Positions 8,396-27,689 of a stretch of DNA of 64,000 nt are shown here, one piece after another. The stretch spans positions 1,655,988 through 1,719,987 of the forward strand of contig NZ_CP011272.1 in the NCBI RefSeq assembly GCF_001610875.1, in the 5' to 3' direction. The notes below the pieces were generated by a model, which worked only from the letters and a program-made list of their open reading frames with translations, was not told the origin of the DNA and did not search any database. A program made the position numbers and the translations under genes. The DNA is from Pirellula sp. SH-Sr6A (lineage in GTDB: Bacteria > Planctomycetota > Planctomycetia > Pirellulales > Pirellulaceae). Position 1 is the first letter of the stretch, and each line of letters starts with the position of its first letter.

Positions 8396-8519
8396 TACAA
8401 CGGGCGAGAGTCTAGCAGCCCCAGGCTAAGCGGTAGCAGGTTCAGCAGTTGTAGGTCAAGTATCCGCAGTCGACTGCATCCCTCCGTGTTGGGGCTACCT
8501 GCAAATACGGCTTGGTTCG

Positions 8520-8665
8520 TAGTGGCCGGTCGCCGACCGGCGTTCCCCCGCTCGCATGCTATCGGCGAATCGACTGGTTCATTACGGTTGAATTGTCGGG
8601 CTGCGCCTGCGGAGACCCGTTCTGAGAACGGTTGGAACAGAAACGCCGTTTAAAAAACGGCTTAT
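8520..8665. repeat. Cluster of three different perfect hairpins
   Basis: Successive inverted repeats: GCCGGTCG-C-CGACCGGC (about 8525-8541), CCGTTCT-G-AGAACGG (about 8617-8631) and GCCGTTT-AAA-AAACGGC (about 8646-8662). The first matches the hairpins at 41.53-41.60 kb. They lie between rpmF and the large array. 8396-8519 shows only degenerate GCAG-rich sequence. Confidence 0.7.
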
Positions 8666-8721
8666 GCTGTAGCGGCCGCCTGGATTGATTGCTTAGGTCC
8701 GCTGCGTCTTTCTTCTCCGCA

Positions 8722-10254: not shown

Positions 10255-10272
10255 GCCTCCCGCCTCCCACCT

Positions 10273-10343
10273 CTCCTTGCTCCTTGCTCCTTGCTCCTCG
10301 CCACTTGCTCCTCGCCACTCGCTACTCGCCACTCGCCACTCGC
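10273..10343. repeat. Heptanucleotide tract 2
   Basis: Tandem 7-mers CTCCTTG grading into CTCGCCA and CTCGCTA, directly after the last A hairpin of array 1. An open frame in phase with fabD runs back into this tract, but the FabD fold begins only at 10488. 10344-10487 shows no gene. Confidence 0.93.
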
Positions 10344-10487
10344 GAACGCGGTTTGGAAAGCGGTTATTTCATCGGGGATAAGCATTCGTTAGCAACTGCT
10401 GTACAATGCTCCGTTCCGGTTGCTACCGATGCGCCGACGTTGCCACTCGCAATTCACCACCTTTCACTCTCCTACCCGACTACCATC

Positions 10488-11399: not shown

Positions 11400-11406
11400 A
11401 GAGCTT

Positions 11407-12075
11407 ATGAAACCTGTCGTAATCCTGGGTTGTGGCGGACATGCGAGCGTCGTGAGCTCCGCATTGCTAACACAGAATCGAATGATCCTGGCATCGACGA
11501 CTCCTGACCCGAAGGCTGTCAATCGATCGTTGTACGCGTGGGAAATCATCACAGACGAAGACCTTCTCGCGCGTTACAATCCGGACGATATCGAGCTTGC
11601 TTTAGGGATCGGCTGGACGTCGCCGAACAACGCAACGTTCTGGGTGCAGCGGATTGTTCAGCGGTTCCTGGAAAAGGGATTTCAATTCACCGGTTGTCGG
11701 CATCCTTTTGCATGGATCGCCCCCGAAGCTTGTATCGATCCGACCGCACAAATCCATGCAGGTGCAGTTATTCAACCTAGGGCAACCATCGGCCCCTTTG
11801 CGATCATCAATACGAGAGCGTCTGTCGATCACGATTGCACCATCGGGGCATTCAGCCACTTGGCGCCAGGGGTAACCCTATCCGGCAGCGTGAAAGTTGG
11901 CGACGGATGCCATATAGGAACCGGTGCCTCCGTCATTGATCAAATTGAGATTGGCACGGAATGTTTGATCGCCGCCGGTTCAGTCGTCGTTTCTTCTGTT
12001 CCTGCGAATTCGAAAGTGCGCGGCGTCCCCGCCAAGCCATTCTTCACAGTCGCCCAACATCAGCCGGATACCTAA
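11407..12075 (+). CDS. NeuD/PglD-like acyltransferase, second copy
   Basis: 222-residue paralogue of the protein at 1176-1826. It shares the GCGGHASVV nucleotide-binding start, the central LGIGWTSPNNA block, the ASVDHDCTIG histidine segment and the C-terminal RVRGVPAKPF (here KVRGVPAKPF); I judge roughly two thirds of residues identical by eye. It follows fabD by 7 bp rather than sitting with other glycan genes. The segment it occupies is bracketed by the inverted arrays 1 and 2. Its acceptor sugar is unknown; a duplication of the glycan-cluster gene is the simplest origin. Confidence 0.88.
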   Translation: MKPVVILGCGGHASVVSSALLTQNRMILASTTPDPKAVNRSLYAWEIITDEDLLARYNPDDIELALGIGWTSPNNATFWVQRIVQRFLEKGFQFTGCRHPFAWIAPEACIDPTAQIHAGAVIQPRATIGPFAIINTRASVDHDCTIGAFSHLAPGVTLSGSVKVGDGCHIGTGASVIDQIEIGTECLIAAGSVVVSSVPANSKVRGVPAKPFFTVAQHQPDT

Positions 12076-12162
12076 TTGGCAAGCCCTCATACTCCTTGAC
12101 AACCTCTCACCCCCATCCTTCGACCGGTCACTACCCTCGCCACACTATCACCAATTCCCACC

Positions 12163-13449
12163 ATGACGACTTCTCCGAATTCCGATATCCACCCTCGCCG
12201 CCGCTGGATCTCAGGTGCAACACTTGGTTTCGCGGCCCTTCAATGGACCGGTCCCGACTCGCTCCTTCGTGCGGCAACTTCAACGACGAAGAATCGCGTT
12301 CGGGTTTATGTGGGTACATTTAGCTCACCCTTGAAAGACGTATTGCCGACGCAAGTCGATTTGCCACCCGGCAATGGCCGTGGCATCCATATTTTTGAAA
12401 TGGACACAGAGTCGGGCGCATTCCAAGAGATCGGCATTGCAGAGTTGGGAACAAGCCCCAGCTGTTTGGTCCTCGACAAACGGGAGTCGTTTCTCTATTC
12501 GGCCAACGAAACCGATCGAATGGGAGCCGAAAACCACGGTACCGTATCGGCTTGGAAGATCGACTCTCAGTCGGGAATGCTATCGCTGGTCAATTCGGTA
12601 ACTTCGGGAGGCTCGGGCCCCACCTATGTGAGTTTGCATCCGAATGGCAAGTTTCTCTTTGTAGCAAACTACTTCGGGGGTTCTATCGCAGTCCACCCGG
12701 TCTTGCCCGACGGTTCCGTAGGGGAAGCAGTCGCGGTCAAGACGGATGAAGGGAACATCGGTCCGACACGTGCCAAGCATGCACCGAAGGGAAGTTTTGC
12801 CATAAGCGGGCACGATCGAACGCATGCGCACATGATTGAAACCGATATCACTGGCAAATGGGTGATCCATTGCGATCTCGGGCAAGACCGCATCTACATT
12901 TGGCAATTCGACTCAACGACGGGTAAACTAACTGCTGCACCGAAGCCCTTTATCGCGTTGCCGCCCGGGGACGGTCCTCGGCACTTTCACTTCCACCCGA
13001 ATGGAAAATGGTTCTATTCGATTCAGGAAGAGGGCTCAACCGTCGTCTTATTCGACTTCGACGCGAGTACCGGCGAACTGACCGAACGCCAAACGATTTC
13101 GACGTTGCCTAACAAATTCGAAGGGAGCAATTTTTGCTCGGAGATTTTGGTATCTCAGGATGGACGATTTGTCTATGCAGGAAACCGGTTGCATGACAGC
13201 ATTGCCATCTTCCGGATCAGCGAAACAGGCGAGTTGACTTACTTGGGAGAGGTATGGACGCAGGGGAACTATCCACGCAGTTTCACGGTGGATCCAAGCG
13301 GCAATTGGTTGGTTTGTTGCAACCAACGGAGTGATAACCTTGCCATTTTCCGCGTCGATCGCACCAGTGGCCAGTTGGAGTTCAGCGGCCAATTCGCCGC
13401 TGTCGGAAACCCATCCGTCGTCCGATTTAGCAAACCGATGTCGAACTAA
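12163..13449 (+). CDS. Lactonase-family seven-bladed beta-propeller protein, Tat-exported
   Basis: 428 residues. N-terminal PRRRWISGATLGFAA is a twin-arginine signal, so export of the folded protein is expected. The mature part starts RVRVYVGTFSSPL and continues with repeated blades (YVSLHPNGKFLFVANYFGGS, GPRHFHFHPNGKWFYSIQE, GNYPRSFTVDPSGNWLVCCNQ), the pattern of the YbhE/Pgl 6-phosphogluconolactonase family. Export argues against a housekeeping pentose-phosphate role; many planctomycete members are of unknown substrate. It converges on the HTH-receiver gene across repeat array 2. Confidence 0.88.
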   Translation: MTTSPNSDIHPRRRWISGATLGFAALQWTGPDSLLRAATSTTKNRVRVYVGTFSSPLKDVLPTQVDLPPGNGRGIHIFEMDTESGAFQEIGIAELGTSPSCLVLDKRESFLYSANETDRMGAENHGTVSAWKIDSQSGMLSLVNSVTSGGSGPTYVSLHPNGKFLFVANYFGGSIAVHPVLPDGSVGEAVAVKTDEGNIGPTRAKHAPKGSFAISGHDRTHAHMIETDITGKWVIHCDLGQDRIYIWQFDSTTGKLTAAPKPFIALPPGDGPRHFHFHPNGKWFYSIQEEGSTVVLFDFDASTGELTERQTISTLPNKFEGSNFCSEILVSQDGRFVYAGNRLHDSIAIFRISETGELTYLGEVWTQGNYPRSFTVDPSGNWLVCCNQRSDNLAIFRVDRTSGQLEFSGQFAAVGNPSVVRFSKPMSN

Positions 13450-13525
13450 GAATCGGTGTTCCCTGTAATGGGAGTAGCAGCCGAATTTACAATGGCGCAT
13501 ACGGTCCAATCGTTCTCAGACCGGC

Positions 13526-13664
13526 GAGGAGCAAGTAGCAAGTAGCAAGTAGCAAGTAGCAAGTAGCAAGTAGCAAGTAGCAAGGAGCAAGGAGCAAGGA
13601 GCAAGGAGCAAGGAGCAAGGAGCAAGGAGCAAGGAGCAAGGAGCAAGGAGCAAGGAGCAAGGAG
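13526..13664. repeat. Heptanucleotide tract 3
   Basis: About 20 tandem 7-mers, first GTAGCAA then GGAGCAA, between the lactonase gene and array 2. It mirrors tract 2, which borders array 1 on the other side of the fabD segment. Confidence 0.95.
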
Positions 13665-13685
13665 AGTCGGGAGGGGGATGCTCCC

Positions 13686-15198
13686 TGTCGAACGGCTCGT
13701 CCTCGACCGTTCTTGCACCGAGTACCACCATACTATCGACCAAGCCACCTCTCCCTCACGCGGTCGTGGAGAGATACTTATCTTGCGCGGTACGTTAGGC
13801 GCTCCAGATCTGTTGAGGACAACAGATCGACAGTGTCGAACGGTTCGTCCTCGACCGTTCCTGCACGAAGTACCACCATACTATCGGCTAATCCGCCTCT
13901 CCCTCAGGCGGTCTTGGAGAGTCCCGCACGCTGTCTGGGAAAGATACATATCTTGCGCGATGCGTTAGGCGATCCAGATCTGTTGAGGACAACAGATCGA
14001 CCCTGTCGAACGGCTCGTCCTCGACCGTTCCTGCACGAAGTACTAGCATACTATCGGCTAAACCACCTCTCCCTCACGCGGTCTTGGAGAGTCCCGCACG
14101 CTGTCTGGGAGAGATACTTATCTTGCGTGATGCGTTAGGCGATCCAGATCTGTTGAGGACAACAGATCGACATTGTCGAACGGCTCGTCCTCGACAGTTC
14201 CTGCACGGAGTACCACCATACCATCGCCCAATCCACCTCTCATTCACGCTGTCGTGGAAAGTCCCTCACGCTGCCTGGGAAAGATACTTAACTTGCGCGA
14301 TGCGTTAGGCGATGCAGATCTGTTGAGGACAACAGATCGACAGTGTCGAACGGCTCGTCCTCGACCGTTCTTGCACGAAGTACTAGCATACTATCGACCA
14401 AGCCACCTCTCCCTCACCCAGTCAGGGAAAGCCCCGTACGCTTTCTGGGAGACATACTTATCTTGCGTGATGCGTTAGGCGATGCAGATCTGTTGAGGAC
14501 AACAGATCGACATTGTCGAACGGCTCGTCCTCGACCGTTCCAGCACCGAGTACCACTTTTCTATCGGCTAAGCCACCTCTCCCTCACGCGGACTTGGAGA
14601 GTCCCGCACGCTGTCTGGGAAAGATACTTATCTTGCGCGATGCGTTAGGCGACCCAGATCTGTTGAGGACAACAGATCGACAACGTCGAACGGCTCGTCC
14701 TCGACCGTTCCAGCACGGAGTACCACCATACTATCGACTAAGCCACCTCTCCCTCACGCGGTCTTGGAGAGTCCCGCACGTTGTCTGGGAGAGTTTCTTA
14801 CCTTGCGCGATGCGTTAGGCGACCCTGATCTGTTGAGGACAACAGATCGACATTGTCGAACGGCGCGTCCTCGACCGTTCTTGCGCCGAATACCACCATA
14901 CTATCGGCTAAGCCACCTCTCCCTCACGCGGTCTTGGAGAGTCCCGCACGCTGTCTGGGAAAGATACTTATCTTGCGCGATGCGTTAGGCGACCCAGATC
15001 TGTTGAGGACAACAGATCGACAACGTCGAACGGCTCGTCCTCGACCGTTCTTGCGCCGAATACCACCATACTATCGACCAATTCACCTCTCCCGTACGCT
15101 ATCTGGGAAAGCTTCCTAACCGGCGTGGTGCGTTAGGCGCCCCTGATCTGTTGAGGACAACAGATCGACAATGTCGAACGGCTCGTCCTCGACCGTTT
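13686..15198 (+). repeat. REP-like tandem array 2 (10 A hairpins, 9 B hairpins), inverted relative to array 1
   Basis: The A and B hairpins of array 1 in reverse complement, with a very regular 170-bp period between 13838 and 15028. The extra ~21 bp per unit, compared with array 1, is a second copy of an internal 22-bp piece (CTTGGAGAGTCCCGCACGCTG-type). The last A hairpin ends about 10 bp from the stop codon of the HTH-receiver gene, so it may also stop transcription. No real gene is present in 13450-15207. Confidence 0.95.
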
Positions 15199-15207
15199 TC
15201 ATGGGGT

Positions 15208-15801
15208 TTAGGCAACGGCGACGGGTCGATCAATTTCGAGCATGTCGCAGACGCGGTCCAGGAGCTTGTCGGTCGTGAACGGCTTTTGCATGAAGTCGTT
15301 CGCGCCCGAGGCTCGCAGTTCGGCCACACGTTCGTGTTCGATCATACCGGAGATGCACAGAATCTTGACCGAATCCATGGTCCGATCGCTTCGCACTCGC
15401 TGACAAACTTCTTTGCCATTGATGTCGGGAAGCATGACGTCGAGGACGACCATGTCAGGACGGAATTCCTTCACCTGCATGCCCGCATCGAAGCCATTGT
15501 TGGCCGTTCGGATATCGAAACGGCCATCCCGATCGAACATGTCGTACATCAAGTCCACCAGATCTTGATCGTCATCGACGATCAATAGCTTCTTTTTACC
15601 GCTTTCTAAGGCATCGGTGGGGATGCCATTGTCCTTCATGAAGACGAACAGTTGGTCGCGGGGGATACGACGGAAGCGGCTTCCTGGAACTCGAAATCCC
15701 TTGAGCGTGCCGTTGTCGAAGCAACGAATGATTGTTTGTTGGCTAACCTTGCAGATCTTGGCAGCCTCGCCGGTCGTGAAAACCGTTTTTGTACTGGACA
15801 T
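15208..15801 (-). CDS. Excisionase-type HTH fused to response-regulator receiver domain
   Basis: 197 residues. The N-terminal ~60 form a MerR/excisionase-like helix-turn-helix (FTTGEAAKICKVSQQTIIRCFDNG), which binds DNA. The rest is a CheY-like receiver with acidic pocket VDDDQ, phospho-acceptor Asp in MVVLDVMLP, the switch residue in CISG and Lys in MQKPF. DNA binding precedes the receiver, the reverse of OmpR/NarL regulators. ATG 15801 is preferred, with an AGGAAGG about 12 bp upstream; an ATG nearer that site would add four residues. No histidine kinase lies nearby, so it is an orphan regulator. Target unknown. Confidence 0.87.
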   Translation of the reverse strand: MSSTKTVFTTGEAAKICKVSQQTIIRCFDNGTLKGFRVPGSRFRRIPRDQLFVFMKDNGIPTDALESGKKKLLIVDDDQDLVDLMYDMFDRDGRFDIRTANNGFDAGMQVKEFRPDMVVLDVMLPDINGKEVCQRVRSDRTMDSVKILCISGMIEHERVAELRASGANDFMQKPFTTDKLLDRVCDMLEIDRPVAVA

Positions 15802-16048
15802 AGGGGGAACCATCCTTCCTGAATGTTCTTTACTATATTGACGACGGGTCGCCAAGCTGACGTGCTCGGTCTATCCTGTGACCTTTCCTGGTCTTCCGAA
15901 CTTACCGAGCCTACCGTAGTTGGGCGGAGAATATCGAAGCGGGGGAAACCGGGTCAAGACGGATTTCAAAAAGAGTAAACTTGGTAAATTCGTGGCTTTA
16001 CGCGATTGGGGATTACCACGCGTTCTACATCAACTGGAAGGGAACCTT

Positions 16049-17137
16049 ATGTCGTCGGAGCTTGTTTCGTGCCGCTGGGGCATTCTGTCAGCCGCATCGA
16101 TCGCCAAAAAGAATTGGCGCGCGATCGCGCAAACGACTCGTAGCTCGGTAGTGGCGGTGGCCAGTCGACGTCGCGAGGCGGCTGAACAGTTTGTGCGGGA
16201 ATGCAGTCTCCACACGCCTCAACGTTTGAGTGTCGATGCGATGGACTCCTACGAGGCGTTGCTCAAGCGAAGCGACATCGATGCCGTATATATCCCGCTC
16301 CCAACGGGGCTTCGCAAAGAATGGATTCTGCGCGCTGCCGAACACGGAAAGCACATTTTGGCGGAGAAGCCTGCAGCCATCACGACCGAGGATATGGAAG
16401 AGGTTCTCGACGTGTGCCGAAAGAAAGGAGTGCAATTCATGGATGGGGTCATGTTCATGCACTCAGCCCGTCTCCCCCAGCTTCGCGAGTCTCTCCTTTG
16501 TCCCGATTCGATAGGGACGATTCGCAGAATCGCCTGCCAATTCTCTTTCAATGGTGGAGACGAGTTCGCCAAGTCGAATATTCGCACCGATAGCAAACTC
16601 GAACCGTTTGGATGCTTAGGGGATTTGGGATGGTATTGCATCCGCTTTATTCTTTGGGTGCATCGCTTCGCCATGCCAACGCGGGTTTCAGGACGTACGC
16701 TCTCGACGCTTCAAGGCGCGGGGAGCGAGGATCGAGTTCCTGCCGAATTTTCCGCAGAACTCGATTTCCATGACGGCTCGACGGCCTCGTTCTACTGTTC
16801 GTTCCTTACCGAGAATCAGCAATGGGCTCACGTAAGCGGGACAAAGGGGTACGCACGATTAGACGATTTCGTATTGCCCTTCTTCGGTAGCGAGGTGGCG
16901 TATGAGGTAAGCCAGCCGTCTTTTAACGTCCAGGGTTGCTCGTTTCATATGCAGCAGCACACCCAGCGCCACGCAGTCCGAGAGTACGATTCCGGTTTTG
17001 CCCCGGCACAAGAAATCAACATGTTCGAAACGTTTCAAAAGATAGTGGAGTCGAAGCAGCTCGATCCCACTTGGGGTGACATCTGTTTGAAGACCCAACA
17101 GGTCATGAACCAGTTGTACCAATCGGCAAACGGGTAA
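16049..17137 (+). CDS. Gfo/Idh/MocA-family NAD(P)-dependent oxidoreductase
   Basis: 362 residues. The Rossmann start ([19 protein letters not shown]) is a degenerate GxGxxA nucleotide loop. [14 protein letters not shown] and the EKPAA motif are typical for this family; the catalytic lysine lies in EKP. The C-terminal half is an open-faced beta-sheet domain ([13 protein letters not shown] segment). ATG 16049 is chosen for its AAGGGA ribosome site five bases upstream; the open frame continues further without family sequence. The substrate is probably a sugar or cyclitol, not determinable here. It lies 52 bp before the amidohydrolase gene on the same strand, so cotranscription is likely. Confidence 0.88.
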
Positions 17138-17189
17138 CACGGTGCGTGAGAAGACGGAACATAGAAGACGGAACATAAGGACAAATCGG

Positions 17190-18902
17190 ATGCTTCGAGA
17201 GTCGATCTTTACAGAGTCGATCTTTACATGGGGTACTGCTCTGGCGGTCTCCTGCTTGTCGCCTCTTTCCGCGTGCCATCAAGCTCTCGCTCAGTCCACA
17301 GAACGCGCGGATATCGTCATATTGGATGCGAAAGTCCACACGATGAATCCGGTGCGTCCGACCGCATCGGCAGTTGCTATCCGCGACCAACGAATCGTCG
17401 CGGTAGGAGACGACGATTCCATGAAGGCTTGGATGGGTGGCGATACCGAAGTGATCCGCGCCGAAGGGAGGGTGATTCTCCCGGGCTTCAACGATAGCCA
17501 TGTCCATTTTCTCCAAGGAGGTCAGCAGCTATCAAGCGTTCAACTGCGAGATGCGGCGACGCCCTCCGAGTTCCGCGCGAGAATTGAGAGTTTTTCGAAG
17601 GGATTAGAAGCGGGCCGCTGGATCGTGGGCGGGGATTGGGATCATGAGAACTGGCCAGAGGGCAATTTGCCCCATCGCGATTGGATCGATGCTTTTACGT
17701 TGGATCGAGGTGTTTTCATCTCCCGGTTGGATGGCCACATGGGTTTGGCCAACAGCTATGCGTTGAAATTGGCTGGCATAGATGAAAGCACCCCCGATCC
17801 TGCAGGTGGGACCATCGTGCGCGAGCCCGAGACGGGGCGACCGACTGGGGTGCTGAAAGATGCGGCTATGAATCTCGTTACAAAGCATATCCCAGCGCTT
17901 AGCTTTGAGGCCAAAAGGAGTGCTGCCAAAGCTGCGACGGAACACGCGGCTGCTCTCGGCGTGACCAGCGTTCAAGATATGTCGGGCGAGGAGTACGTCC
18001 CGGTATTCCAGTCTTTGCGGAAAGACGGGGAGTTGAAAACAAGGATTTATGCCGTAGCCCCACTTCCTCAATGGAAACGATCGGCGGAGCAAAATCTTCG
18101 TGCTGCGATCGGAGATACTTGGTTGAGGCGAGGGGGCCTTAAAGGGTTCGCCGACGGAAGTCTAGGTTCGACAACCGCCTTATTCTTTGAACCGTATTTG
18201 GATGAGCCCCGGACGAAAGGGCTACCTAGCGATGAGATGTTTCCCGACTGGGCGATGTTAGAGCGGGTAAGGGGTGCGGATGCCGCGGGCCTTCAAATTA
18301 TGATCCATGCGATCGGCGATGCCGCGAACGAGAAGATCTTGTCGATCTATGAACAGGTTTCATCTGCGGCAGGGGATCGCGATCGCCGATTCCGTATTGA
18401 GCATGCACAGCATTTGCGTCTGGTTGATATTCCGCGGTTCCGAACGACCAAGGTCATCGCATCGATGCAGCCATTCCATTGTGCCGACGATGGACGGTGG
18501 GCCTGGAAACGAATCGGAGACGAGCGTGCCAAGGGGACTTATGCATTTCGGGATTTGCTCGATGCCGGGGTCGTTCTTGCGTTTGGCTCCGATTGGAACG
18601 TAGCGCCCCTCGATCCAATTGCAGGGATCGAAGCCGCCGTGACGCGACAGACGCTTGACGGGAAACATCCCAATGGATGGGTACCGGAACAAAAAATCAC
18701 GGTAGAGGAAGCAGTAAGGGCTTACACAGTCGGTTCTGCGTTTGCCGAGTTCGCGGAAAGCGAGAAGGGAATGATCAAGCCGGGGATGTTAGCAGACGTG
18801 GTGATGTTGTCGGACGATATCTTTGAGAACGGATTCGACCGCTGGAAGACCACTCAAGTCCGATTGACGATCGTCGACGGTCGCATCGTCTTCGAACGCT
18901 AA
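17190..18902 (+). CDS. Exported metal-dependent amidohydrolase (YtcJ-like)
   Basis: 570 residues. ATG 17190 is preceded by AAGGA and gives a hydrophobic signal segment ending near CHQALAQ, so export is likely. The amidohydrolase fold follows: [18 protein letters not shown], the first metal site FNDSHVHF, later histidines in [10 protein letters not shown] and RIEHAQHL, and aspartate in [12 protein letters not shown]. These are hallmarks of the YtcJ subgroup. Upstream, a 14-bp piece (GAAGACGGAACATA) is tandemly duplicated. A 15-bp piece (GAGTCGATCTTTACA) is duplicated just inside the gene, giving [10 protein letters not shown]. Substrate unknown. The gene converges on 19760-20089 across repeats. 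Confidence 0.88.
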
Positions 18903-18934
18903 CGCACCACGGCTTAGCAGCCTGTCCCGGCCTA

Positions 18935-19050
18935 GCGGTCGTCCCCGTTTAAGCAGTCGTCTAAGGTCAGGCAGTCGTCTGAGGTCAGGCAGTCGTCCCC
19001 AGTCAGGCAGTCGTCCCCGACCAACCAGTTGTCCTCAACTGCCCGACACT
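18935..19050. repeat. Short GGCAGTCGTC tandem repeat and CAGTTG-TCCT-CAACTG hairpin
   Basis: Four or five copies of an imperfect 18-bp unit (GTCAGGCAGTCGTC core) are followed by a hairpin CAGTTG-TCCT-CAACTG that carries the same apical TCCT as hairpin B of the large arrays. Directly downstream of the amidohydrolase. Confidence 0.75.
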
Positions 19051-19059
19051 GGGAGTGGG

Positions 19060-19355
19060 GAGCGGTTTTTTGGCCAAAGGCCATATACACCTTAGCCTAG
19101 GGCAACGCCCTAGGTACACGTCCCGGCCCCGGTCTTTTGGCTGAAAGCCAACCACAACGGTACTACTTGCGTAAGGACCAACGGGCCAAGGACATGAATC
19201 CATTCGGAGATCGAACATACAGGGGATTTCCATTCGACGATATGTGCCATGGCGTGTAACGGATTTGTGCATGGCCTTCAGCCAAAAGAATCCGTCGAGA
19301 CGACGGCTCTACATTGGAAAACCGTCGGGACGACCGTTCGGCATTGCCGACCACC
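19060..19355. repeat. Composite hairpin module, copy ii
   Basis: The same three hairpins as copy i (GGCC-AAA-GGCC, CCTAGGGC-AAC-GCCCTAGG, GGCT-GAAA-GCC) at about 19073-19150. A partial reverse half (19258-19290) follows, then CCGTCGAGACGACGG and CCGTCGGGACGACCG hairpins. It sits in a convergent junction. Confidence 0.85.
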
Positions 19356-19357
19356 CC

Positions 19358-19478
19358 TCCATGCTCCTTGCTCCTTGCTCCATGCTCCATGCTCCATGCT
19401 CCTTGCTCCCTGCTCCCTGCTCCCTGCTCCTTGCTCCTTGCTCCTTGCTCCTTGCTCCTTGCTTCTTGCTCCTTGCTT
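19358..19478. repeat. Heptanucleotide tract 4
   Basis: About 17 tandem 7-mers, ATGCTCC, CTCCTTG and CTCCCTG variants. 19479-19759 has no convincing complete gene. A minus-strand frame entering the tract (see findings) begins MVSQQVRPLLSMALFANV and could be a gene remnant. Confidence 0.93.
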
Positions 19479-19759
19479 CGGCGACCGTGCGGTAAGTGGA
19501 TCCCGCAAACGCGATCGCGTTCATGACGCAAACGTTGGCGAAGAGAGCCATTGACAGGAGAGGCCGAACCTGCTGGGAAACCATATCACTCCAATTCGAG
19601 TGTCCCTCGCAACGAGGTCTGATCGCATGTTTTTCGCATCGCTGTCGAGAATGACACCCCATCCCAGTTAGAGAACAAAAAAGGGCCGGTCGGCATCCGG
19701 CACTCTTCGCCATGCGAAAAAGCCTTGCCAACCAGCCCGAAAGTGAACCGCGATGGTTC

Positions 19760-20089
19760 TCACCGACCCAACGCGCGTGTTGGTTGATCGCGTCTTTTCC
19801 ACGACGTGGAAACGACCACAATGACCAAACTTATTACCATTGCTTCCGCGATAGATACCAACATAAGATTCTTAAATCCATAACCTCCAATCCAGGCGAC
19901 AGGGTCCAAGATCCTTCTACTTAAATAGAACAAGAGCGCTCGAATCGAATTCGTGGGCTTCTTACCACTCGTACCCAACATGGCGAGATCACAGACTATT
20001 TCTGTTCCGAGGGCTAAGCAATTTACAAGCAATGCCGCAATGAGACTTACGCCGAAGAAAATCAAAACTCGCTTAAGAACTCTTATCAT
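19760..20089 (-). CDS. Small two-helix membrane protein, unknown function
   Basis: 109 residues not matching any family I know. Hydrophobic segments at about residues 7-34 (VLIFFGVSLIAALLVNCLAL) and 76-93 (LMLVSIAEAMVISLVIVVV) predict two transmembrane helices. Its ATG starts two bases after the stop of the large secreted protein and uses an AAGGG site inside that gene's end, so translation is coupled. GC is low here (about 40-47% in the lines counted) compared with roughly 53% upstream. Position and coupling suggest it works with the large protein, for example as an immunity or anchoring partner; that is inference. Confidence 0.6.
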   Translation of the reverse strand: MIRVLKRVLIFFGVSLIAALLVNCLALGTEIVCDLAMLGTSGKKPTNSIRALLFYLSRRILDPVAWIGGYGFKNLMLVSIAEAMVISLVIVVVSTSWKRRDQPTRALGR

Positions 20090-20091
20090 GA

Positions 20092-23000
20092 CTAACCCTT
20101 ATCGTTTGGATTTGATTCTGGGAAGCCGAAGTCCTGGGGCCTAACCATTAAGGCGTCAATCCCTACCCCAACCAGCTCATTAACAATTATTCCATGCACA
20201 GCGATACTGTTGCTGCGGTCAAGCGGATAGTTGTAGGAACTAGCTTCATCGCCGTCATTAAAACCGGGACTTCCGCCAATACCTCCGTGAGACGAATCGT
20301 AGACGTATGGAATTATCTGAGTCTGCAAATTATTAACAGCTGGGTATATTCGAGATTCATGAGCCATACGACTAAATCCGCGGTGATCATAATTCACGCC
20401 ATTGAAAACAGGGCCGATAACCACGACCTTTTTAATTCTATTCTGTACTATCGCTGCACTATCAGGTATCGAAGAAGCCATATCGACAGGATCCATGAGA
20501 AGAACGATGTCGACGGTTATTCCACGATTCGAAAGAGAATTCGCCACCCAGAGTGATATCATTGCACCACGACTGAATCCAAGTATGGCAATTCTCGGCT
20601 TCACGCTCTGCGAATTATAAATCGTTGTGATCTCAGCCAAAACGGTGTCATGTATTGCGTCAGAATCTCCTCCATGCCAGTCGTCGGGCCCATACTTGTA
20701 TATTTCGTGCCTAGCACTAACGTCCAATTCAACGAGGTTCCGCGTATGAGAATTCCATCGTTCCGGGTTTAAGAGAGTCTTTCCAAAAGGGCCTTCGAGC
20801 CATCCTCGGCTCCATGTACCATCAATGCCTACTAGAAGCACATTCTGGATTCGGGCCTTAACTATCACTTCGTCGAGCGCGACGGAGGACGAAGCACTTG
20901 CCTCAAGACTCCAAGAGATCTTATAGTCAGTTTCAACTTCTAGATCTGCATGTACAAAGACGACAGAAGGCCATTTTTTGATAAAATTCCACCTGTAAAT
21001 CTCTATTCGATTGTTATCCTCGGGTGCGGTTGTTTGTTGAGAGTCGAAAACTTTTTCCGTCATCTCTTCGTTTGCCCATATCGTGAGACCCGCTGGAACA
21101 GTAAGTTTGGCTATGTGGCCTTGTTCAACAAGTTGATGGACTAATCCGTTCGCATCCAAAACCATTGGGGTGGCTTTGTTTGCTTTGATGGTCAAGATCT
21201 TGCCCTGACCGGTTACGTTCTCGATGGCGTCTTCGGTCGAGGTGCGATCGACGATGTTGTTATTGTCGCTATCGATATCCAAATCGAGGACTGGGTCGAG
21301 TGGGTCGGTCGCGTTGACCAGGATAGAGTCATAAGTCCCTGAGAACTGGAAGGTGGAGTCGTGCCATCTCATCGCGATCGTCGTCTGGCCTTCCGCGATG
21401 CTCTCCACCCAAAGCTTGGTTGGATTGGAAATCCCGTTGAATGGGATCATGGTAAGCTCCGGTTTCACCTCGGAGTCTGTACCTCCAGTCGGTGTGGACT
21501 TATCCTGCTTGAACCAAACGCGAACCCGCGTGTTGTCAAAAGAAAGGGTGTAGTACCCCGTCTGCTGTGCTGTCATCTCTCCTCCTTTAGCAAGGAGTTC
21601 GAGCTTGTGAAGATCTGGATCATTGAATCCGGAATCGAATTGGTCCTCCACCGAGTTCGCGTTGTCATCGTCGTTATTGACAATGAGCTGAAGACCAGGA
21701 TTGTCCTCTTTCGCTTCCGTCAGTCGGTTCGACGCCGCATCGAAGGCATCTAGATCCATCGTGCCCAGCTCGAGGCTCGCTTGAACGGAATCACCGAGTT
21801 GGGTGATGACAGTGTATTTCAAACTATCGGAGCCTTCTGCATCCTCATCCGGTGTGTATCGGATTTTCCCACCTTCGACGACCGCAGTTCCCTCGTCGGG
21901 AGGATCGTTAATGACTAGCTTGGGAGCCGCATTGAACTTAAGCAGCCCATCACCCGCGATCGATTGCGATTGAGAAAATCCGTTGAAGTTGGGAAGAGCT
22001 AACTGGAAAGACCAATCGTGGGTGACGAACATCCCCGTCCCTTTGCCCAGCGTAGCAACCTCAGAATCCTCTTCGATCACGACTCCACCGATGAAGTAAA
22101 CGTTATCGATCGTTGTGACACCAAACGAATTGCTGATTTGGATTTTACCACCTCCCCACCAAGCCCATCGCATTGTTGTCGAGGCCGGAATCTCTTCTCC
22201 ATCCGAGATGCCGTCGGCTATCGCGGAGCAACCACCGTTAGGGTAATACGATCGCAATCCTAAATCATCACGAAACTCAAACCCAGTAATGGTGACGGTG
22301 GAGACTGCCTCTTTCTCACGCGTGGTAAACGTCGAACTTCCCTGAATATTTTCAAACCAGTAGAACGTGTCGTCGGGATCGCCATTGATGGATGAGAACG
22401 TGTAACCACTGTTCCCGCTGACTTGAACGGACGTTGTGTGATCAAAGCTCTCGCTCATATGAACCGTGTCATTGGCCAGAATCGGAATCGTCGAGATTTC
22501 CGATTTTGGTCTCAACAAAAAGTCGTTAACGGCCTTTAGACCAACACCATCGTCGTTGTCCGCATCGGCGTCACCGCACCACGAGTCACGAGATAATCCA
22601 GTCGTGGGAGGGACAGGAGCAGGTGGTGGAGGTGGCGGGGGCGCAGCCGGTGGTTCGGCAGAGTCGCCGCCACCTGTACTTCCACCTGTACTTCCACCTG
22701 TGCTGCCTCCTGTGCTGCCTCCTGTGCTGGTGTCACTGCTTGAGTTGGAGCCTCCCCCCGAGCCATAGTCAGGGTAACTACCCGATCCGGCGTCGGGCGT
22801 GCTCCCAGAGCCGGAATCGGGGTAGTCACCGAGACCATAGTCGGGGTAGTTGTCAGATCCGGAGTCGGGCGTGCCTCCGGTTCCGGAGTCGGGATAGTCG
22901 CCTAAACCGTAGTCAGGATAACTCCCCGATCCCGAGTCCGATCCCGAGTCCGAGGAACCTCCAGTACCAGAGTCTGGATACTCTCCAAGGCCATAGTCGG

Positions 23001-23646
23001 GGTAACTACCTGTTCCGGAATCCGAGGAATCTCCGGTTCCAGAGTCGGGGTAATCGCCGAGTCCGTAGTCAGGGTAGCTTCCTGATCCAGAGCCCGAGGA
23101 GTCCCCAGTACCAGAGTCTGGATAGTCACCGAGACCATAGTCGGGATAGCTACCATAGTCGGGGTAACTACCAAGGCCATAGTCGGGGTAGAGACCACGC
23201 GACGTATCTTGCAGTTGGGGCGTGCTCAGCTCGCTGGCTGAAGAGTTCAACGCCTCCGATACCGAGTGGACGACTGCCGTCCAATCCGAGTAATCAAAAG
23301 AGGTGTCACCATTGACATCAAAGTAATAGGACGACTCGAAACGATAAGCATTCGAGTCTCCCGTTCCATACAGATACTCCAATCCGTTGGCCACCAAGAG
23401 CGCGTCGGAGACGGCAATCGTTCCGTCGCCGTCGACGTCGCTCGCTAGGTTCGCGTTCTGTTCCCAAACCATTCCTGGCAAGGTATCCGCGGCCATCACG
23501 ACACGGGGCTCGAAAGATTCCAACTTAGGACGCCGAGAAGCCGCAAGCTCTCGGTGATGCGTTCGCTTTGACTGGATGAAGAAACATTTGATGGTGCGCA
23601 CTGTCCAGGCGCAAACGACCATCCACAGACCACGAAAACGGGGCAT
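20092..23646 (-). CDS. Large secreted multidomain protein: dockerin-like, Tyr/Asp/Gly repeats, Ig-like, DUF2235-like hydrolase end
   Basis: 1184 residues. Residues 41-54 (KLESFEPRVVMAAD) match the N-terminal LE.R..L.AD pattern of planctomycete secreted proteins. Residues 69-130 have paired DxDGDG and DVNGDTSFDYSDW calcium loops of dockerin type. Residues ~150-300 repeat a 23-24-residue YPDYGLGDYPDSG unit, followed by Gly/Ser and poly-Pro linkers. A cadherin/Ig-like segment with VEGGKIRYTPDEDAEGSD follows. The last ~260 residues look like an alpha/beta hydrolase: VGIDGTW, then a GFSRGA nucleophile elbow near residue 1024, as in DUF2235 phospholipases. The GC drop begins near 21.15 kb and continues through the coupled downstream gene. 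Enzymatic activity is inference. Confidence 0.75.
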   Translation of the reverse strand: MPRFRGLWMVVCAWTVRTIKCFFIQSKRTHHRELAASRRPKLESFEPRVVMAADTLPGMVWEQNANLASDVDGDGTIAVSDALLVANGLEYLYGTGDSNAYRFESSYYFDVNGDTSFDYSDWTAVVHSVSEALNSSASELSTPQLQDTSRGLYPDYGLGSYPDYGSYPDYGLGDYPDSGTGDSSGSGSGSYPDYGLGDYPDSGTGDSSDSGTGSYPDYGLGEYPDSGTGGSSDSGSDSGSGSYPDYGLGDYPDSGTGGTPDSGSDNYPDYGLGDYPDSGSGSTPDAGSGSYPDYGSGGGSNSSSDTSTGGSTGGSTGGSTGGSTGGGDSAEPPAAPPPPPPPAPVPPTTGLSRDSWCGDADADNDDGVGLKAVNDFLLRPKSEISTIPILANDTVHMSESFDHTTSVQVSGNSGYTFSSINGDPDDTFYWFENIQGSSTFTTREKEAVSTVTITGFEFRDDLGLRSYYPNGGCSAIADGISDGEEIPASTTMRWAWWGGGKIQISNSFGVTTIDNVYFIGGVVIEEDSEVATLGKGTGMFVTHDWSFQLALPNFNGFSQSQSIAGDGLLKFNAAPKLVINDPPDEGTAVVEGGKIRYTPDEDAEGSDSLKYTVITQLGDSVQASLELGTMDLDAFDAASNRLTEAKEDNPGLQLIVNNDDDNANSVEDQFDSGFNDPDLHKLELLAKGGEMTAQQTGYYTLSFDNTRVRVWFKQDKSTPTGGTDSEVKPELTMIPFNGISNPTKLWVESIAEGQTTIAMRWHDSTFQFSGTYDSILVNATDPLDPVLDLDIDSDNNNIVDRTSTEDAIENVTGQGKILTIKANKATPMVLDANGLVHQLVEQGHIAKLTVPAGLTIWANEEMTEKVFDSQQTTAPEDNNRIEIYRWNFIKKWPSVVFVHADLEVETDYKISWSLEASASSSVALDEVIVKARIQNVLLVGIDGTWSRGWLEGPFGKTLLNPERWNSHTRNLVELDVSARHEIYKYGPDDWHGGDSDAIHDTVLAEITTIYNSQSVKPRIAILGFSRGAMISLWVANSLSNRGITVDIVLLMDPVDMASSIPDSAAIVQNRIKKVVVIGPVFNGVNYDHRGFSRMAHESRIYPAVNNLQTQIIPYVYDSSHGGIGGSPGFNDGDEASSYNYPLDRSNSIAVHGIIVNELVGVGIDALMVRPQDFGFPESNPNDKG

Positions 23647-23911
23647 GATTCGTACTCGCTGCTATAGGTGAAGAAGGGGCGTAAGGGCGTGAGTAATACT
23701 CACAGCGATAACATGAAATTATCGATGGATGAAAGGAACGCAAGAAATTGGCGCGGAAATTTTTGAAGAATTTAAGAAGCCTTGTCCGGCCGTAAACGAA
23801 CCCCAACGGCCAGAACAAGAACTTCGCTGCAAAGAACAAGGGAATACGCTGCAAAGAACAAGGAATTCCGCTAGGCAAGCGTTCTTTGCAAACTTTCGAT
23901 CTTACTCGTGC

Positions 23912-24443
23912 AGGAACGGTCGAGGACGACCATTTCGATCTGTTGTCCTCAACAGATCTGCATCGCCTAACGCATCACGCAAGGTAAGTATCTCTCCAAG
24001 ACAGCCTGCGGGACTTTCCAAGACTGCCTACGGGAGAGGTAGCTTAGTCGATAGTAGGGTGGTACTCGGTGCTGGAACGGTCGAGGACGAGCCGTTCGAC
24101 ATTGTCGATCTGTTGTCCTCAACAGATCTAGAGCGCCTAACGCATCACGCCAGTTAGGAAGCTCTCCCAGACAGCCTGCGGGACTTGCCAAGTCAGCGTG
24201 AGGGAGACGTGACTTGGCCGATAGTAGGGTGGTACTCGGCGCAGGAACGGTCGAGGACGAGCCGTTCGACATTGTTGATCTGTTGTCCTCAACAGATCTG
24301 GATCGCCTAACGCATCGCGCAAGATAAGTATCTCTCCAAGACAGCCTGCGGGACTTTCCAAGACAGCGTACGGGAGAGTTGGTCTGGCCGATGGCATGGT
24401 GGTACTCGGTGTAGGAACGGTCGGGGACGAGCCGTTCGACAAT
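23912..24443 (-). repeat. REP-like array 3, upstream of the RAYT (4 A, 3 B hairpins)
   Basis: Same orientation as array 1, with units of about 165-170 bp that keep the internal 22-bp piece. The last A hairpin ends about 70 bp before the transposase start. 23647-23911, between the secreted-protein start and the array, shows two copies of a GCAAAGAACAAGG-type short repeat and no gene. Confidence 0.95.
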
Positions 24444-24513
24444 TTCTTGGGAAACTTCCCAAATAGCGTAGCATGACTCGATCAGGAGCGATCCAAGCTC
24501 TATCATTTGAGGT

Positions 24514-25224
24514 ATGCCCGAACCCCAAAAAACGCCTAATGTCTTTAACGCACTGGATCGCGACGCGCCCATTGATATATCGTCGCGAAATTTACCGCAT
24601 TGGTATCAAGCGGGAGCGGCAACCTTCGTAACTTTTCGAACAGCCGACTCGCTTCCGAAGCAGGCCATTGATCGAATGGTTGCGGAACTGACAGAATGGC
24701 TAGCTGCTCGAAATCTTCCGCTCCATATCGCTAGCGCATGTCTTCACAACCAGGGCGTTGCATACCGCAACGGTCTAAGCCAACTTGACAGGAAGCAGCA
24801 ACGTTTATTTCAAAAGGTTGTAAGCGACTGGATGCACCGTTCTCTGGACGAATGCTATGGCGATTGTTTGCTCCGATCTCCTGAGCTCTCAGTAATCGTC
24901 GCGGATGCAATTCGATATTTTAATGGAGTGCGATACGATTTGGATAGCTTTGTGGTCATGCCGAATCATGTTCATGTGCTCGTTCAGTTTCGTAAAGAAT
25001 TTGATTTGCAAGTGATTGGTTCGAGTTGGATGCGTTACACCGCTAGATTGATCAATCAGAAACTTGGTCGAAGGGGGATCTTTTGGAAGCCAGAGCCGTT
25101 CGATCATTTGATTCGTAGTCCGGAGCATCTTGCGCACTTCCGGAGTTACATTCGAGAGAACCCTCGCAAAGCAAATCTTCCAACCCGAGACTTCTTGTAT
25201 TGGAATAGGGCGGAGTTGGGGTAG
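24514..25224 (+). CDS. REP-associated tyrosine transposase (RAYT, Y1/IS200-like)
   Basis: 236-residue HUH-family single-strand nuclease. Seen: LPHWYQAGAATFVTFRT at the start, the HUH pair His152/His154 in VVMPNHVHVLV, and the C-terminal block WKPEPFDHLIRSPEHLAHF plus RSYIRENPRKANL. Tyr212 there aligns with the catalytic Tyr115 of E. coli TnpA-REP (YafM, from memory), so the active site appears intact. Family knowledge: RAYTs are single-copy genes flanked by the hairpin repeats they process. Here arrays 3 and 4 lie on both sides, with further arrays at 8.7 and 13.7 kb. No terminal insertion-sequence ends are seen, so it is probably domesticated rather than a mobile IS. Confidence 0.92.
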   Translation: MPEPQKTPNVFNALDRDAPIDISSRNLPHWYQAGAATFVTFRTADSLPKQAIDRMVAELTEWLAARNLPLHIASACLHNQGVAYRNGLSQLDRKQQRLFQKVVSDWMHRSLDECYGDCLLRSPELSVIVADAIRYFNGVRYDLDSFVVMPNHVHVLVQFRKEFDLQVIGSSWMRYTARLINQKLGRRGIFWKPEPFDHLIRSPEHLAHFRSYIRENPRKANLPTRDFLYWNRAELG

Positions 25225-25315
25225 GTAGTTTTGCGTTAAGCTGTCGTCCTCTGTCTAGTGGTCGTCCTCGACAACTTCTGCACGCGTAGCCAATAGGATG
25301 GTGGTACTCGGCGCT

Positions 25316-25729
25316 GGAACGGTCGAGGACGAGCCGTTCGACAATGTCGATCTGTTGTCCTCAACAGATCTGCATCGCCTAACGCATCTCGGAAGGTAAG
25401 AAACTCTCCAAGACTGCGTTAGGGAATTTCCCAGGCAGCGTGAGGGAGACGTGGCTTAGCCGATAGTAGGATGGTACTCGGTGCAGGAACGGTCGAGGAC
25501 GAGCCGTTCGACATTGTCGATCTGTTGTCCTCAACAGATCTGGAGCGCCTAACGCATGGCGCAACGTAAGTATCTTTCCAAGACCGCGTGCGGGACTTTC
25601 CAAGACCGCGTGCGGGACTTTCCAAGACTGCGTACGGGACTCTCCACGACAACGTGAGGGAGACGTGGTCTGGTCGATGGTATGGCGGTACTCGGCGCAG
25701 GAACGGTCGAGGACGAGCCGTTCGACAAT
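25316..25729 (-). repeat. REP-like array 4, downstream of the RAYT (3 A, 2 B hairpins)
   Basis: Same orientation as arrays 1 and 3. The second interval contains three to four tandem copies of the 22-bp piece (CGGGACTTTCCAAGACCGCG core) at about 25571-25650, more than in any other unit. Degenerate GTCGTCCTCGAC sequence extends back to about 25236. 25730-25830 has no gene. Confidence 0.95.
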
Positions 25730-25830
25730 GCGGCAATTTGGGTAGGTGAGTTTCGTGGAGTCGAGTATGCTTTCCGGCGACTCCTCCCCCGCCCCTAGGT
25801 GGACTGCGACTTTGCTAATCGGACACGAGA

Positions 25831-26796
25831 ATGAGTGGAACCAACCCAAACAACCTTCATGAGAAAAGACCTCCCGCACTCTTCATCGCCGGAGGGCTTG
25901 GCATTATCTATCTCGTCTGGGGTTCCACCTATTTGGCAATCAAAGTCGCGGTCGATACTCTGCCACCTTTCTTGATGGCAGGAGCAAGATTCCTTGTCGC
26001 GGGCGCAGTGATGGCTGTCATCCTTCTCGCGTTCGGCCGACTCCGCGCTACAGGTCGACAATGGCTGTGGAATGCTTGGGTTGGTCTTTTCATGATGGTG
26101 GGTGGAAACGGTTTGGTTTCGTGGGCGGAACAGACGATTCCCTCAGGCATCGCAACGTTGATCGTCGCGTTCAATCCCTTGATGATGGTCACTGCCGAAT
26201 GGGTGATTTGGGGCCGAACGAAAGGGAAGCTCGGCGCCAGTCCGAACCGAACTGTTTTCGCAGGACTTGCCATGGGATGCGCAGGCCTAGCCATGTTAGT
26301 AGCCCCGAGTTTGCAAGGAACCGGTTCTGCCAGCTACGACCTGTTACGCGTCGGGGCGATCGTCCTAGCCTGTCTGACTTGGACAATAGGTTCCATGATG
26401 ACTCGCTACGGAGGCAATCCGACGGATCCCTTTACAGGAGCTGCCATTCAAATGCTTTGCGGGGGATTGTGGCTCATCGCGTTTGGTGCATTGCTCGGAG
26501 AGACGAAGGAAGTGCAATGGACTCAATTTAGCCGCGAATCGATTTTCGCTTGGTGGTATCTGGTTATCGCCGGATCGCTCGTCGCATTCACCACCTTTGT
26601 ATGGTTAATGAAGCACGCCTCACCAACACTGATATCAACCTACGCGTATGTAAACCCTGTCGTCGCTGTCTTCTTAGGCTGGCTCGTCCTGAACGAACGT
26701 ATCGACAATTGGACGATCGTTTCGGCGGCGGTCATCGTCTTGGGAGTCGCGACAATCACGTGGGGGAAAAGGCCTCGAGTAGTAAGTAGTAAGTAG
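25831..26796 (+). CDS. EamA/DMT-superfamily transporter (YedA/RhaT-like)
   Basis: 321-residue integral membrane transporter with about ten hydrophobic helices in two EamA halves. The first begins IIYLVWGSTYLAIKVAVDTLPPFLMAGARFL, a signature of YedA-like members; the second ends with PVVAVFLGWLVLNERI. Substrate unknown; relatives export amino acids or other small metabolites. The last five codons (VVSSK) and the stop lie inside a GTAGTAA 7-mer tract, so repeat expansion has supplied the C-terminus. Confidence 0.9.
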   Translation: MSGTNPNNLHEKRPPALFIAGGLGIIYLVWGSTYLAIKVAVDTLPPFLMAGARFLVAGAVMAVILLAFGRLRATGRQWLWNAWVGLFMMVGGNGLVSWAEQTIPSGIATLIVAFNPLMMVTAEWVIWGRTKGKLGASPNRTVFAGLAMGCAGLAMLVAPSLQGTGSASYDLLRVGAIVLACLTWTIGSMMTRYGGNPTDPFTGAAIQMLCGGLWLIAFGALLGETKEVQWTQFSRESIFAWWYLVIAGSLVAFTTFVWLMKHASPTLISTYAYVNPVVAVFLGWLVLNERIDNWTIVSAAVIVLGVATITWGKRPRVVSSK

Positions 26797-26852
26797 TAAG
26801 TAGTAAGTAGTAAGGAGCGAGTAGCGAGGGGCGAGGGGCGAGGGGCGAGGGG
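26778..26852. repeat. Heptanucleotide tract 5, overlapping the EamA stop codon
   Basis: Tandem GTAGTAA (four to five copies), then GGAGCGA/GTAGCGA and GGGGCGA. The tract starts inside the coding sequence and provides the TAG stop. It lies in a convergent junction with the PAS-AraC gene. Confidence 0.94.
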
Positions 26853-26939
26853 AACAGGAACAATCGGAACAATCAGGACATACGTGGGGCGGTTTCGATC
26901 AAAATGCCACCGGTGCACGGCGAAGTTCGTTCGACAGGA

Positions 26940-27689
26940 TCATCGAAAGGCGTTGCGATAGTGGCTGGGACTGATGCCGGTGGCGGCGGAGAATTGCCGG
27001 CTAAAGGCGGCTTGATCGTAGAACCCACATTCCACGGCAATCACCGCAAGTGGCTTATCGGTATGAATCAACCGCGTGGCCGCTTGCTCCACTCGGGTCT
27101 TGGTTAGCAGTCCACGGGGGGACAAACCGACGATGCTACGCACTTTGCGCTCGAGTTGGCTCCAGCTATAGCCCGATCGAGCTACGAGCTCTTCAATCCG
27201 CAGGGGTTGGGCGAAGTCGCGATGGATCGTGTTGACGATATCCGCAACGGGCCCCAAGTCGCTTTTTGTCTCCGCCAAATCCCGAGAGATACCTGCCAGT
27301 GCGATGACTTTTCCTTCCCCGTCCAACACCGGGGTTTTCTGTGAAATGAACCATCCCATTCCACCGTCGGGCTGGGTAATCAGTTCGATGCGATCGCGAA
27401 TGGTGATCCCCTTTTCCAAGACTTCATCGTCTTGCTGCTCGTATCCGGCCGCCAAGATCGCTGGGAAAACCTCTTTGGCAGATTTCCCAACCAGTTGCTC
27501 AGTCCTCCAGCCGCCAGCACGCCTCGCAAAGGCCTCGTTGACGATGACGTAACAACGCGATCTGTTTTTGATGCAGAACAGGACATCGGTAAGGGTTCCA
27601 AATAGCGTCTCGGCAATAGCAAGACCGGGCGCTTGCTGGAGCAGCCATTCGCGGCCTTGCAGATTCCCCGCAGGAGGCTTTTTTTTCAT
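26940..27689 (-). CDS. PAS-domain AraC-family transcriptional regulator
   Basis: 249 residues from ATG 27689. Residues ~25-140 are a PAS fold (DVLFCIKNRSRCYVIVNEAFARRAG, then the PAC-like WFISQKTPVLDGEGKVIALAGISRDL). Residues ~155-245 are an AraC-type double helix-turn-helix (IEELVARSGYSWSQLERKVRSIVG and IAVECGFYDQAAFSRQFSAATG). The open frame extends 38 codons further upstream without family sequence. It is divergent from putA with 220 bp between, so regulation of proline catabolism is an attractive but untested inference. The PAS domain would bind a ligand or cofactor; which one is unknown. Confidence 0.88.
   Translation of the reverse strand: MKKKPPAGNLQGREWLLQQAPGLAIAETLFGTLTDVLFCIKNRSRCYVIVNEAFARRAGGWRTEQLVGKSAKEVFPAILAAGYEQQDDEVLEKGITIRDRIELITQPDGGMGWFISQKTPVLDGEGKVIALAGISRDLAETKSDLGPVADIVNTIHRDFAQPLRIEELVARSGYSWSQLERKVRSIVGLSPRGLLTKTRVEQAATRLIHTDKPLAVIAVECGFYDQAAFSRQFSAATGISPSHYRNAFR

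Follow-up and report, generated by a model that had tools for sequence, protein, structure and literature searches.

We analysed a 64,000-nucleotide stretch of the chromosome of Pirellula sp. SH-Sr6A (NZ_CP011272.1, positions 1,655,988 to 1,719,987; hereafter the window), in which a gene for a REP-associated tyrosine transposase (RAYT) stands between arrays of repetitive extragenic palindromic (REP) hairpins. The gene (24514-25224, + strand; its start lies at 1,680,501 on the chromosome) encodes a 236-residue, TnpAREP-like single-strand DNA transposase of the HUH/Y1 type. A previous reading of this DNA, made without database searches (the sequence-only reading), had taken the RAYT to be intact, and this holds: the frame is free of internal stops, and the HVH motif (H152-V153-H154) and the catalytic tyrosine (Y212, assigned by analogy with the Y-I-x-x-N-P motif) are in place, with H152, H154 and Y212 invariant in 45 aligned sequences.

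Four arrays occur in the window, all between long open reading frames (periods from Tandem Repeats Finder). Array 1 (about 8724-10252; 21 hairpins, b(Ab)10, period 149 bp) and Array 2 (about 13687-15198; 19 hairpins, period 170 bp, the same element turned round) lie upstream of the RAYT, with their ends about 14 and 9 kb away from it. Array 3 (about 23915-24441; 7 REP hairpins, b(Ab)3, 170-bp units) ends at a B hairpin just upstream of the gene, and Array 4 (about 25318-25727; 5 REP hairpins, b(Ab)2) lies directly downstream of it, with a unit tail (about 25283-25317) in front. As had been proposed, Arrays 1 and 2 are composed of the same two hairpins as Arrays 3 and 4. The A hairpin, GATCTGTTG-N4-CAACAGATC, has 24 copies in the window, and the B hairpin, AACGG..CCGTT, has 28 in the four arrays; the two counts given earlier were right, with the names A and B exchanged relative to ours.

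Each of the two hairpins is a REP: read on its proper strand, a 5' tag is followed by a hairpin with a TCC-bearing loop. They have in common a loop core, GTCCTC, which lies on opposite strands and each time behind a 5' TGTCG, a likeness that the sequence-only reading overlooked. Hairpin A (GTCG.ATCTGTTGTCCTCAACAGAT) is a perfect palindrome, for example at 24103-24128 on the + strand, where TGTCG (24103-24107) is followed by ATCTGTTG-TCCT-CAACAGAT. Hairpin B (GTCG.AACGGCTCGTCCTCGACCGTT) has a single bulged base in most copies, including the one placed tail-to-tail to this A hairpin (24076-24101, - strand; TGTCG, then AACGGCTCGTCCTCGACCGTT). Folded as single-stranded DNA, the consensus oligonucleotides took the expected shape and gave -8.3 kcal/mol (z -4.8) for A and -7.7 kcal/mol (z -2.9) for B, and the final G of the tag was also paired in both. 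A and B stand with their tags inward and their loop cores 31-34 bp apart, and these tail-to-tail heterodimers are repeated in tandem, the unit being A, B and a longer spacer, across which the loop cores are usually 116-138 bp apart. Among 107 units measured genome-wide, 44 are of 170 bp, 18 of 161 bp, 11 of 148 bp and 2 of 192 bp; in the arrays of the cluster that ends at the RAYT gene (the proximal cluster, see below), units are mostly of 170 or 148 bp, and the spacer holds a 22-bp sub-repeat in varying number.

With B on one strand and A on the other, the pair has the two inverted REPs of bacterial interspersed mosaic elements (BIMEs) and of REP doublets forming hairpins (REPINs). The great majority of copies carry GTCG, which places them outside strictly defined GTAG REPs (GTAG or GT[AG]G). 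They are not CGTC REPs either (tag CGTC, no dedicated transposase), because a T precedes GTC in most copies and the hairpins flank a RAYT. Rfam had no match at E<=0.1 for window positions 8000-27000. A third hairpin, AACCGTCGTCCTCGACGGTT, occurs at window positions 33674, 33705, 44832 and 45481; its loop core is the same, but three of its four copies are tagged GTAG.

The predicted structure of the RAYT has as its best match TnpAREP bound to a REP (PDB 4er8; 19% identity, 137 aligned residues), and the model has extra helices between core strands one and two. The protein reaches 53.6 bits against NCBIfam NF047646 (REP_Tyr_transpos; residues 128-224), below the curated cut-off of 80 bits, and is therefore a relative of this equivalog and not a member. 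It does have what defines a RAYT or TnpAREP in the broad sense: the HUH/Y1 fold with the HUH motif and the tyrosine in Y-I-x-x-N-P, tagged REP hairpins on both flanks of the gene, and a low copy number per type, with one copy of the window type in the genome. Its motifs NHVH, W-K and YIRENP match no Quentin subclass row exactly in a comparison by eye, and a PADLOC scan gave nothing for the RAYT. We consider it probable, at roughly 0.8, that the locus is a REPtron of a Pirellulaceae-type planctomycete, whose RAYT is a TnpAREP-like nuclease and strand-transferase with the GTCG-tagged REP as its substrate.

RAYT loci, tags and residue 27

RAYTs are found in 59 of 119 family genomes at E<=1e-3 and in 101 of 241 genomes at E<=1e-20, this genome being included in both counts. 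One tagged hairpin core occurs on both sides of the gene at 53 of 71 RAYT loci, versus none of 30 RecA loci (the controls are the 30 best RecA matches, not paired genome by genome; RecA flanks at contig ends were cut at fixed offsets, and a few boundaries are approximate). At the 71 RAYT loci, GTNG precedes the hairpins in 343 of 910 readings of both strands, the top of 64 tetranucleotide classes (median 65). A wider set was made by adding to these the loci of the best 80 of 270 relatives from a GTDB scan and 20 more family loci (171 loci, 163 distinct). Recurring tagged hairpins were present at 112 of the 163 and on both sides of the gene at 104. Among the 112, the third tag base is A at 53 loci, C at 30, G at 17 and T at 3, while 9 loci are mixed.

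The stems differ between related REPtrons. Four RAYTs that are 47-58% identical to that of the window (L055, L238, L297, L298) lie among paired hairpins with other stems, and the pair order differs in L298. The flanking of RAYTs by tagged hairpins across the family and the wider set, together with these differing stems, supports the REPtron proposed in the sequence-only reading. One of the nearest relatives, the RAYT of genome G154 (L297, 7298-7992), matches in two overlapping frames as if broken, with its GTCG hairpins intact. At five further loci (L061, L062, L099, L106, L122), the RAYT is accompanied by many recurring hairpins of its own, 7 to 23 within 1.5 kb; judged by eye, L061 has units of about 68-75 bp and L062 units of 251 bp. 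The Pirellula genome itself encodes a second RAYT (L048; G000:C1:1925401-1925922, - strand), 45% identical to the first. Hairpins of the GTAG.AAGCGGCGTCCCGCCGCTT type flank it, and one of them apparently lies inside the open frame, ahead of its conserved part; two REP types with different tags thus coexist in this genome.

None of the other 118 family genomes that were searched has the A core of the window type, nor do 25 of 26 other genus genomes; the 26th (G150) has five core matches with a different outer stem. The refuting condition set by the sequence-only reading, equally abundant arrays in related genomes lacking such a RAYT, was checked both through this distribution and through a second REP, whose association with RAYT was strong, if not absolute. 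This REP, GTCGNCTTTCGCTCCGCGAAAG, occurs in 66 of 241 genomes (control 0), namely in 48 of the 101 with a RAYT at E<=1e-20 versus 18 of the 140 without. All 15 genomes with an assigned cognate RAYT, meaning one with this hairpin at its flanks, carry it in 3-268 copies (median 37), whereas the median is 0 among the remaining 86 genomes with a RAYT; the comparison is partly circular, as flank copies were counted. In G011, among the matches listed, 16 sites lie at 2.59-2.98 Mb around one of two RAYTs (2.72 Mb), with 23 further sites, and in G080 14 sites are scattered over the chromosome.

Residue 27 of the RAYT was R or K in 28 of 30 GTCG RAYTs versus 4 of 73 others in tests on 103 labelled RAYTs (mixed-tag loci dropped). 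On a quick tree built without this column, Pagel's test of residue 27 against GTCG gave a likelihood ratio of 27.3 (p 1.7e-5, or about 0.003 corrected for 155 columns, each split once by its best Fisher class); the next column reached 14.9 and the median of the 155 was 4.5. The tree of the 103 RAYTs holds four tag versions and at least 25 tag changes, and across these loci the GTCG tag and residue 27 co-evolve, the window protein itself being an exception. L254, 47% identical to the window RAYT, combines GTCG with R27. Covariation of residues 107, 230 and 231 with the tag, high by a plain Fisher test, was lost once the tree was used. The model places residue 27 between two short strands (21-24 and 28-31), ahead of the first core strand (35-43), and the 4er8 alignment starts at model residue 24 and chain residue 1, which puts residue 27 near the N-terminus of the 4er8 chain. 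According to the sections of PMC8266576 compared, regions comprising beta-1 contact GTAG in E. coli. Our own suggestion is that residue 27 may be part of this GTAG-contact area.

This family offers natural enzyme-hairpin pairs with four tags and a candidate specificity residue, which make guide choice and retargeting directly testable.

Spread, ends and growth of the arrays

The hairpins are present beyond chance, with 132 exact copies of the A core CTGTTGAGGACAACAG in the 6.53-Mb genome (reversed control 0) and 186 copies of GTCGAGGACGA (control 11). They are also regionally clustered: 82 of the 132 A cores fall within 1,545,474-1,681,524, that is 136 kb ending at the RAYT gene, or 2.1% of the chromosome (counted by hand among the 100 positions listed, the other 32 being taken as beyond 3.594 Mb). 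A one-unit query gave 198 genome matches which, among the matches listed, are at the same loci as the A cores. The stretches examined hold 26 arrays with at least three hairpins, 14 of them in the proximal cluster. Proximal arrays follow the order B(AB)n, some imperfectly, and distal arrays often start or end with A. Unit identity is 92.4% within arrays, 84.3% between proximal arrays and 73.2% between proximal and distal units; units being more alike within than between arrays, in-place tandem growth must have contributed. Four units of the array at G000:C1:1669674-1671185 have their best match in an array 93 kb off (1576174-1578490), suggesting transfer between arrays.

The ends of the proximal arrays are sharp. 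B-type hairpins stand at both ends in 14 of 14 proximal arrays of at least three hairpins, and likeness to the array interior ceases within a few bases of the tag. Reading by hand showed CA at -4, with other sequence just upstream, at half of the tag-side ends of proximal arrays (7 of 14), and CA at -4 is also the commonest C-dinucleotide ahead of the tag at GTCG and GTAG loci; its weighted share among RAYT loci is 44% for GTCG, 29% for GTAG, 17% for GTGG and 28% for GTTG (n=3). In the Marinomonas TnpAREP, cleavage at CA or CT is set through the tag, CA being selected via T2 and G4 (sections compared in PMC8266576), and all tags here share three bases, T2 and G4 among them. We rejected a cleavage site 3' of the hairpin made of C and the complement of N3: CG at +3 was present in 48% of GTCG loci (weighted) versus 12% of GTAG loci, with no CT enrichment in GTAG.

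Array 1 separates a ketosynthase gene (6777-8129) from an acyltransferase gene. The gap, taken from the ketosynthase match as far as residue 68 of the acyltransferase, measures 2,359 bp and holds 12 tagged hairpins. The ketosynthase is present in 22 other genus genomes, with the acyltransferase within the examined flank in 15, and in all 15 the gap is shorter and free of tagged hairpins: it spans 276-451 bp in ten and 993-1003 bp in two where the acyltransferase match starts at residue 59-69, and the match starts at other residues in the remaining three. Set beside the gap of this genome, the array-free orthologous gap lets an insertion be viewed before and after the event. Two of the remaining seven relatives (L274, L275) carry hairpins of a different type, tagged GTAG, immediately behind this ketosynthase gene, and the gap may therefore be a recurrent insertion site.

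Mobilisation of the arrays by the RAYT is, we infer, the best explanation of these features. The RAYT would bind tag and loop on single-stranded DNA and make its cuts close to the hairpins; the probable cut on the tag side is C^A, four bases 5' to the tag, where C would face G4 and A would face T2 of the guide. The enzyme would next join a segment bounded by B into new sites between genes, for the most part no farther than about 140 kb from the RAYT gene. There, further units would arise by slippage, by unequal exchange or through repeated strand transfer by the RAYT, building up B(AB)n arrays. More tentatively, and at somewhat less than even odds, we propose a RAYT lineage whose guide was re-specified (GTAG to GTCG, and others) alongside residue 27, at the N-terminal margin of the core fold, with an enzyme acting as a local satellite-maker that seeds and amplifies B(AB)n arrays mainly in the 140 kb beside its own gene. 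The arrays themselves demonstrate that dimers of REPs can turn into satellites of kilobase length, concentrated next to the gene of their transposase.

Several observations weigh against mobilisation by the RAYT and its guide. For 85 of 107 units the nearest match comes from their own array, a pattern that plain recombination would produce as well. The left-hand ends of arrays show less uniformity, and distal arrays frequently terminate in A. At 59 of the 163 RAYT loci, recurring tagged hairpins do not stand on both flanks. The window RAYT has L27 despite its GTCG tag, and one of its two nearest relatives (L253; its gene reads in two frames, L297) also combines GTCG with L27, so that a second solution must exist; an independent-pairs test gave 2-3 pairs for, none against and 1-2 without difference, four pairs being too few. 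At least five copies of GTCGNCTTTCGCTCCGCGAAAG occur in 11 of the 140 genomes without a RAYT at E<=1e-20: G109 has 155 copies and a weaker RAYT match (E 2e-12), and G072 has 68 copies and no RAYT match. G042 has 504 copies, yet the one RAYT detected there stands among GTGG/GTAG hairpins. Five RAYT-bearing and five RAYT-less genomes, compared in small random 80-kb samples, did not clearly differ in numbers of tagged hairpins. G072, G017, G042 and others do not bear out the idea that REPs depend strictly on a RAYT of their own genome; RAYT loss after spread, assembly gaps or cross-mobilisation could account for these exceptions.

The best-surviving alternative, which we nevertheless hold to be unlikely, is that the RAYT has been domesticated and no longer moves its repeats, with the arrays retained for some function in the host, such as in mRNA 3' ends or in gyrase or nucleoid binding, and with co-evolution reflecting binding only. 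Domestication is the published view of TnpAREP in the sections of PMC8266576 compared, and it would fit the single copy of the window RAYT type and the location of all four arrays between long open reading frames. However, of the genomes searched this is the only one with the own-type hairpin, which makes the family look young here, and the units differ between the proximal cluster and distal sites, pointing to recent spread.

Slightly less probable still, in our estimate, is that the arrays are ordinary satellites, grown and spread by slippage and homologous recombination, with the RAYT a mere passenger. The greater likeness of units within arrays (92.4% versus 84.3% between proximal arrays) and the prevalence of same-array nearest matches would be expected of them, and REP-rich genomes without a close RAYT exist. 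Yet ordinary satellites leave unexplained the different GTNG hairpins that flank RAYT but not RecA genes (53 of 71 versus 0 of 30 loci), the matching REP in genomes with a cognate RAYT and the co-evolution of tag and residue 27, while the sharp B-hairpin ends and the arrays in a gap that is array-free in relatives need a joining step. A classical IS200/IS605 insertion sequence with B hairpins as its left and right ends is very improbable: it would have the same fold, and the B hairpins do flank the gene as direct repeats (the left and right ends of IS608 carry hairpins), but the protein scores 14.7 of 55 bits as a typical TnpA and is present in a single copy, not in multiple near-identical mobile copies.

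Comparison with known REP systems

The closest structural counterpart, the REPtron of E. coli with its TnpAREP (RAYT group 2, 4er8), has the same HUH/Y1 fold, 5'-tagged hairpins flanking the gene and inverted REP pairs. Unlike it, the Pirellula system has a perfectly palindromic A hairpin, a B hairpin with one bulge in most copies, a GTCG tag, a protein of 236 residues with extra helices, and kilobase arrays. The group 3 REPtrons of Stenotrophomonas and Marinomonas are alike in their perfect palindromes and important loop bases, whereas here the stems are longer than in Marinomonas (5 bp), the tag is GTCG and alternating heterodimers form tandem arrays. In BIMEs and REPINs the unit likewise consists of two REPs in inverted orientation; here the tags point inward, and amplification at many sites has taken the unit up to 10 copies or more.

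Two points of the sequence-only reading find less support, namely that REP/RAYT systems are known chiefly in gammaproteobacteria and that tandem arrays of this kind are unusual. REP families of Rhodopirellula baltica, large clusters of REP dimers repeated in tandem with flanking segments, and a degenerate tag, GTMG, were all described in 2013 (Di Nocera, passages compared in PMC3733652), and in our wider set at least six recurring tagged hairpins lie within 1.5 kb at 34 of the 163 RAYT loci. Members of the GTAG superfamily, R. baltica REPs included, resemble the Pirellula elements in their tagged hairpins, tail-to-tail dimers and tandem dimer clusters. What sets the present system apart is GTCG as the standard tag (30 of 103 labelled loci), the adjacent RAYT and the regional concentration in this genome. 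The GTCG class is not named in the text on the GTAG superfamily that was compared (PMC3733652), and the strict tag given in the part of Quentin 2018 compared is GT[AG]G. For the GTAG-23 elements of T. roseum, unlike here, the text compared states no link to RAYT position. Excerpts of PMC6006769, PMC6749651 and PMC8049555 were also compared.

Tandem REP-dimer clusters, degenerate tags and R. baltica REPs are thus already in print, and the variant features here are the GTCG guide, satellite-like B(AB)n arrays, their regional concentration and a tag co-evolving with one residue. Among the matches listed from the open-licence literature, we found no use of GTCG in work on REPs, RAYTs or TnpAREP, a result that covers open-licence papers only and does not show absence from print, and nothing closer on planctomycete RAYTs; Rhodopirellula repeats appeared there as a table entry only.

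Other features near the arrays

Heptamer microsatellites (CTCCTTG, CTCGCCA, CTACTCA) occur at window positions 10273-10343 and 13527-13664 and at other proximal array ends, and in the listed cases their C-rich strand runs outward from the array. The heptamer tract was considered as a part of the element and rejected: 8 of 28 proximal ends lie at most 120 bp from a period-7 tract, versus about 3% of random positions, and 0 of 24 distal ends do. The transporter gene adjoining Array 4 has a match in 10 of 27 genus genomes, at 48-57% identity. Elsewhere in the genome, an IS200-like Y1 transposase (L049; G000:C1:864235-864576, - strand) reaches 93 bits in an open frame of 157 residues. The window also holds an unrelated array at 55745-56982, with about six copies of a 197-bp unit.
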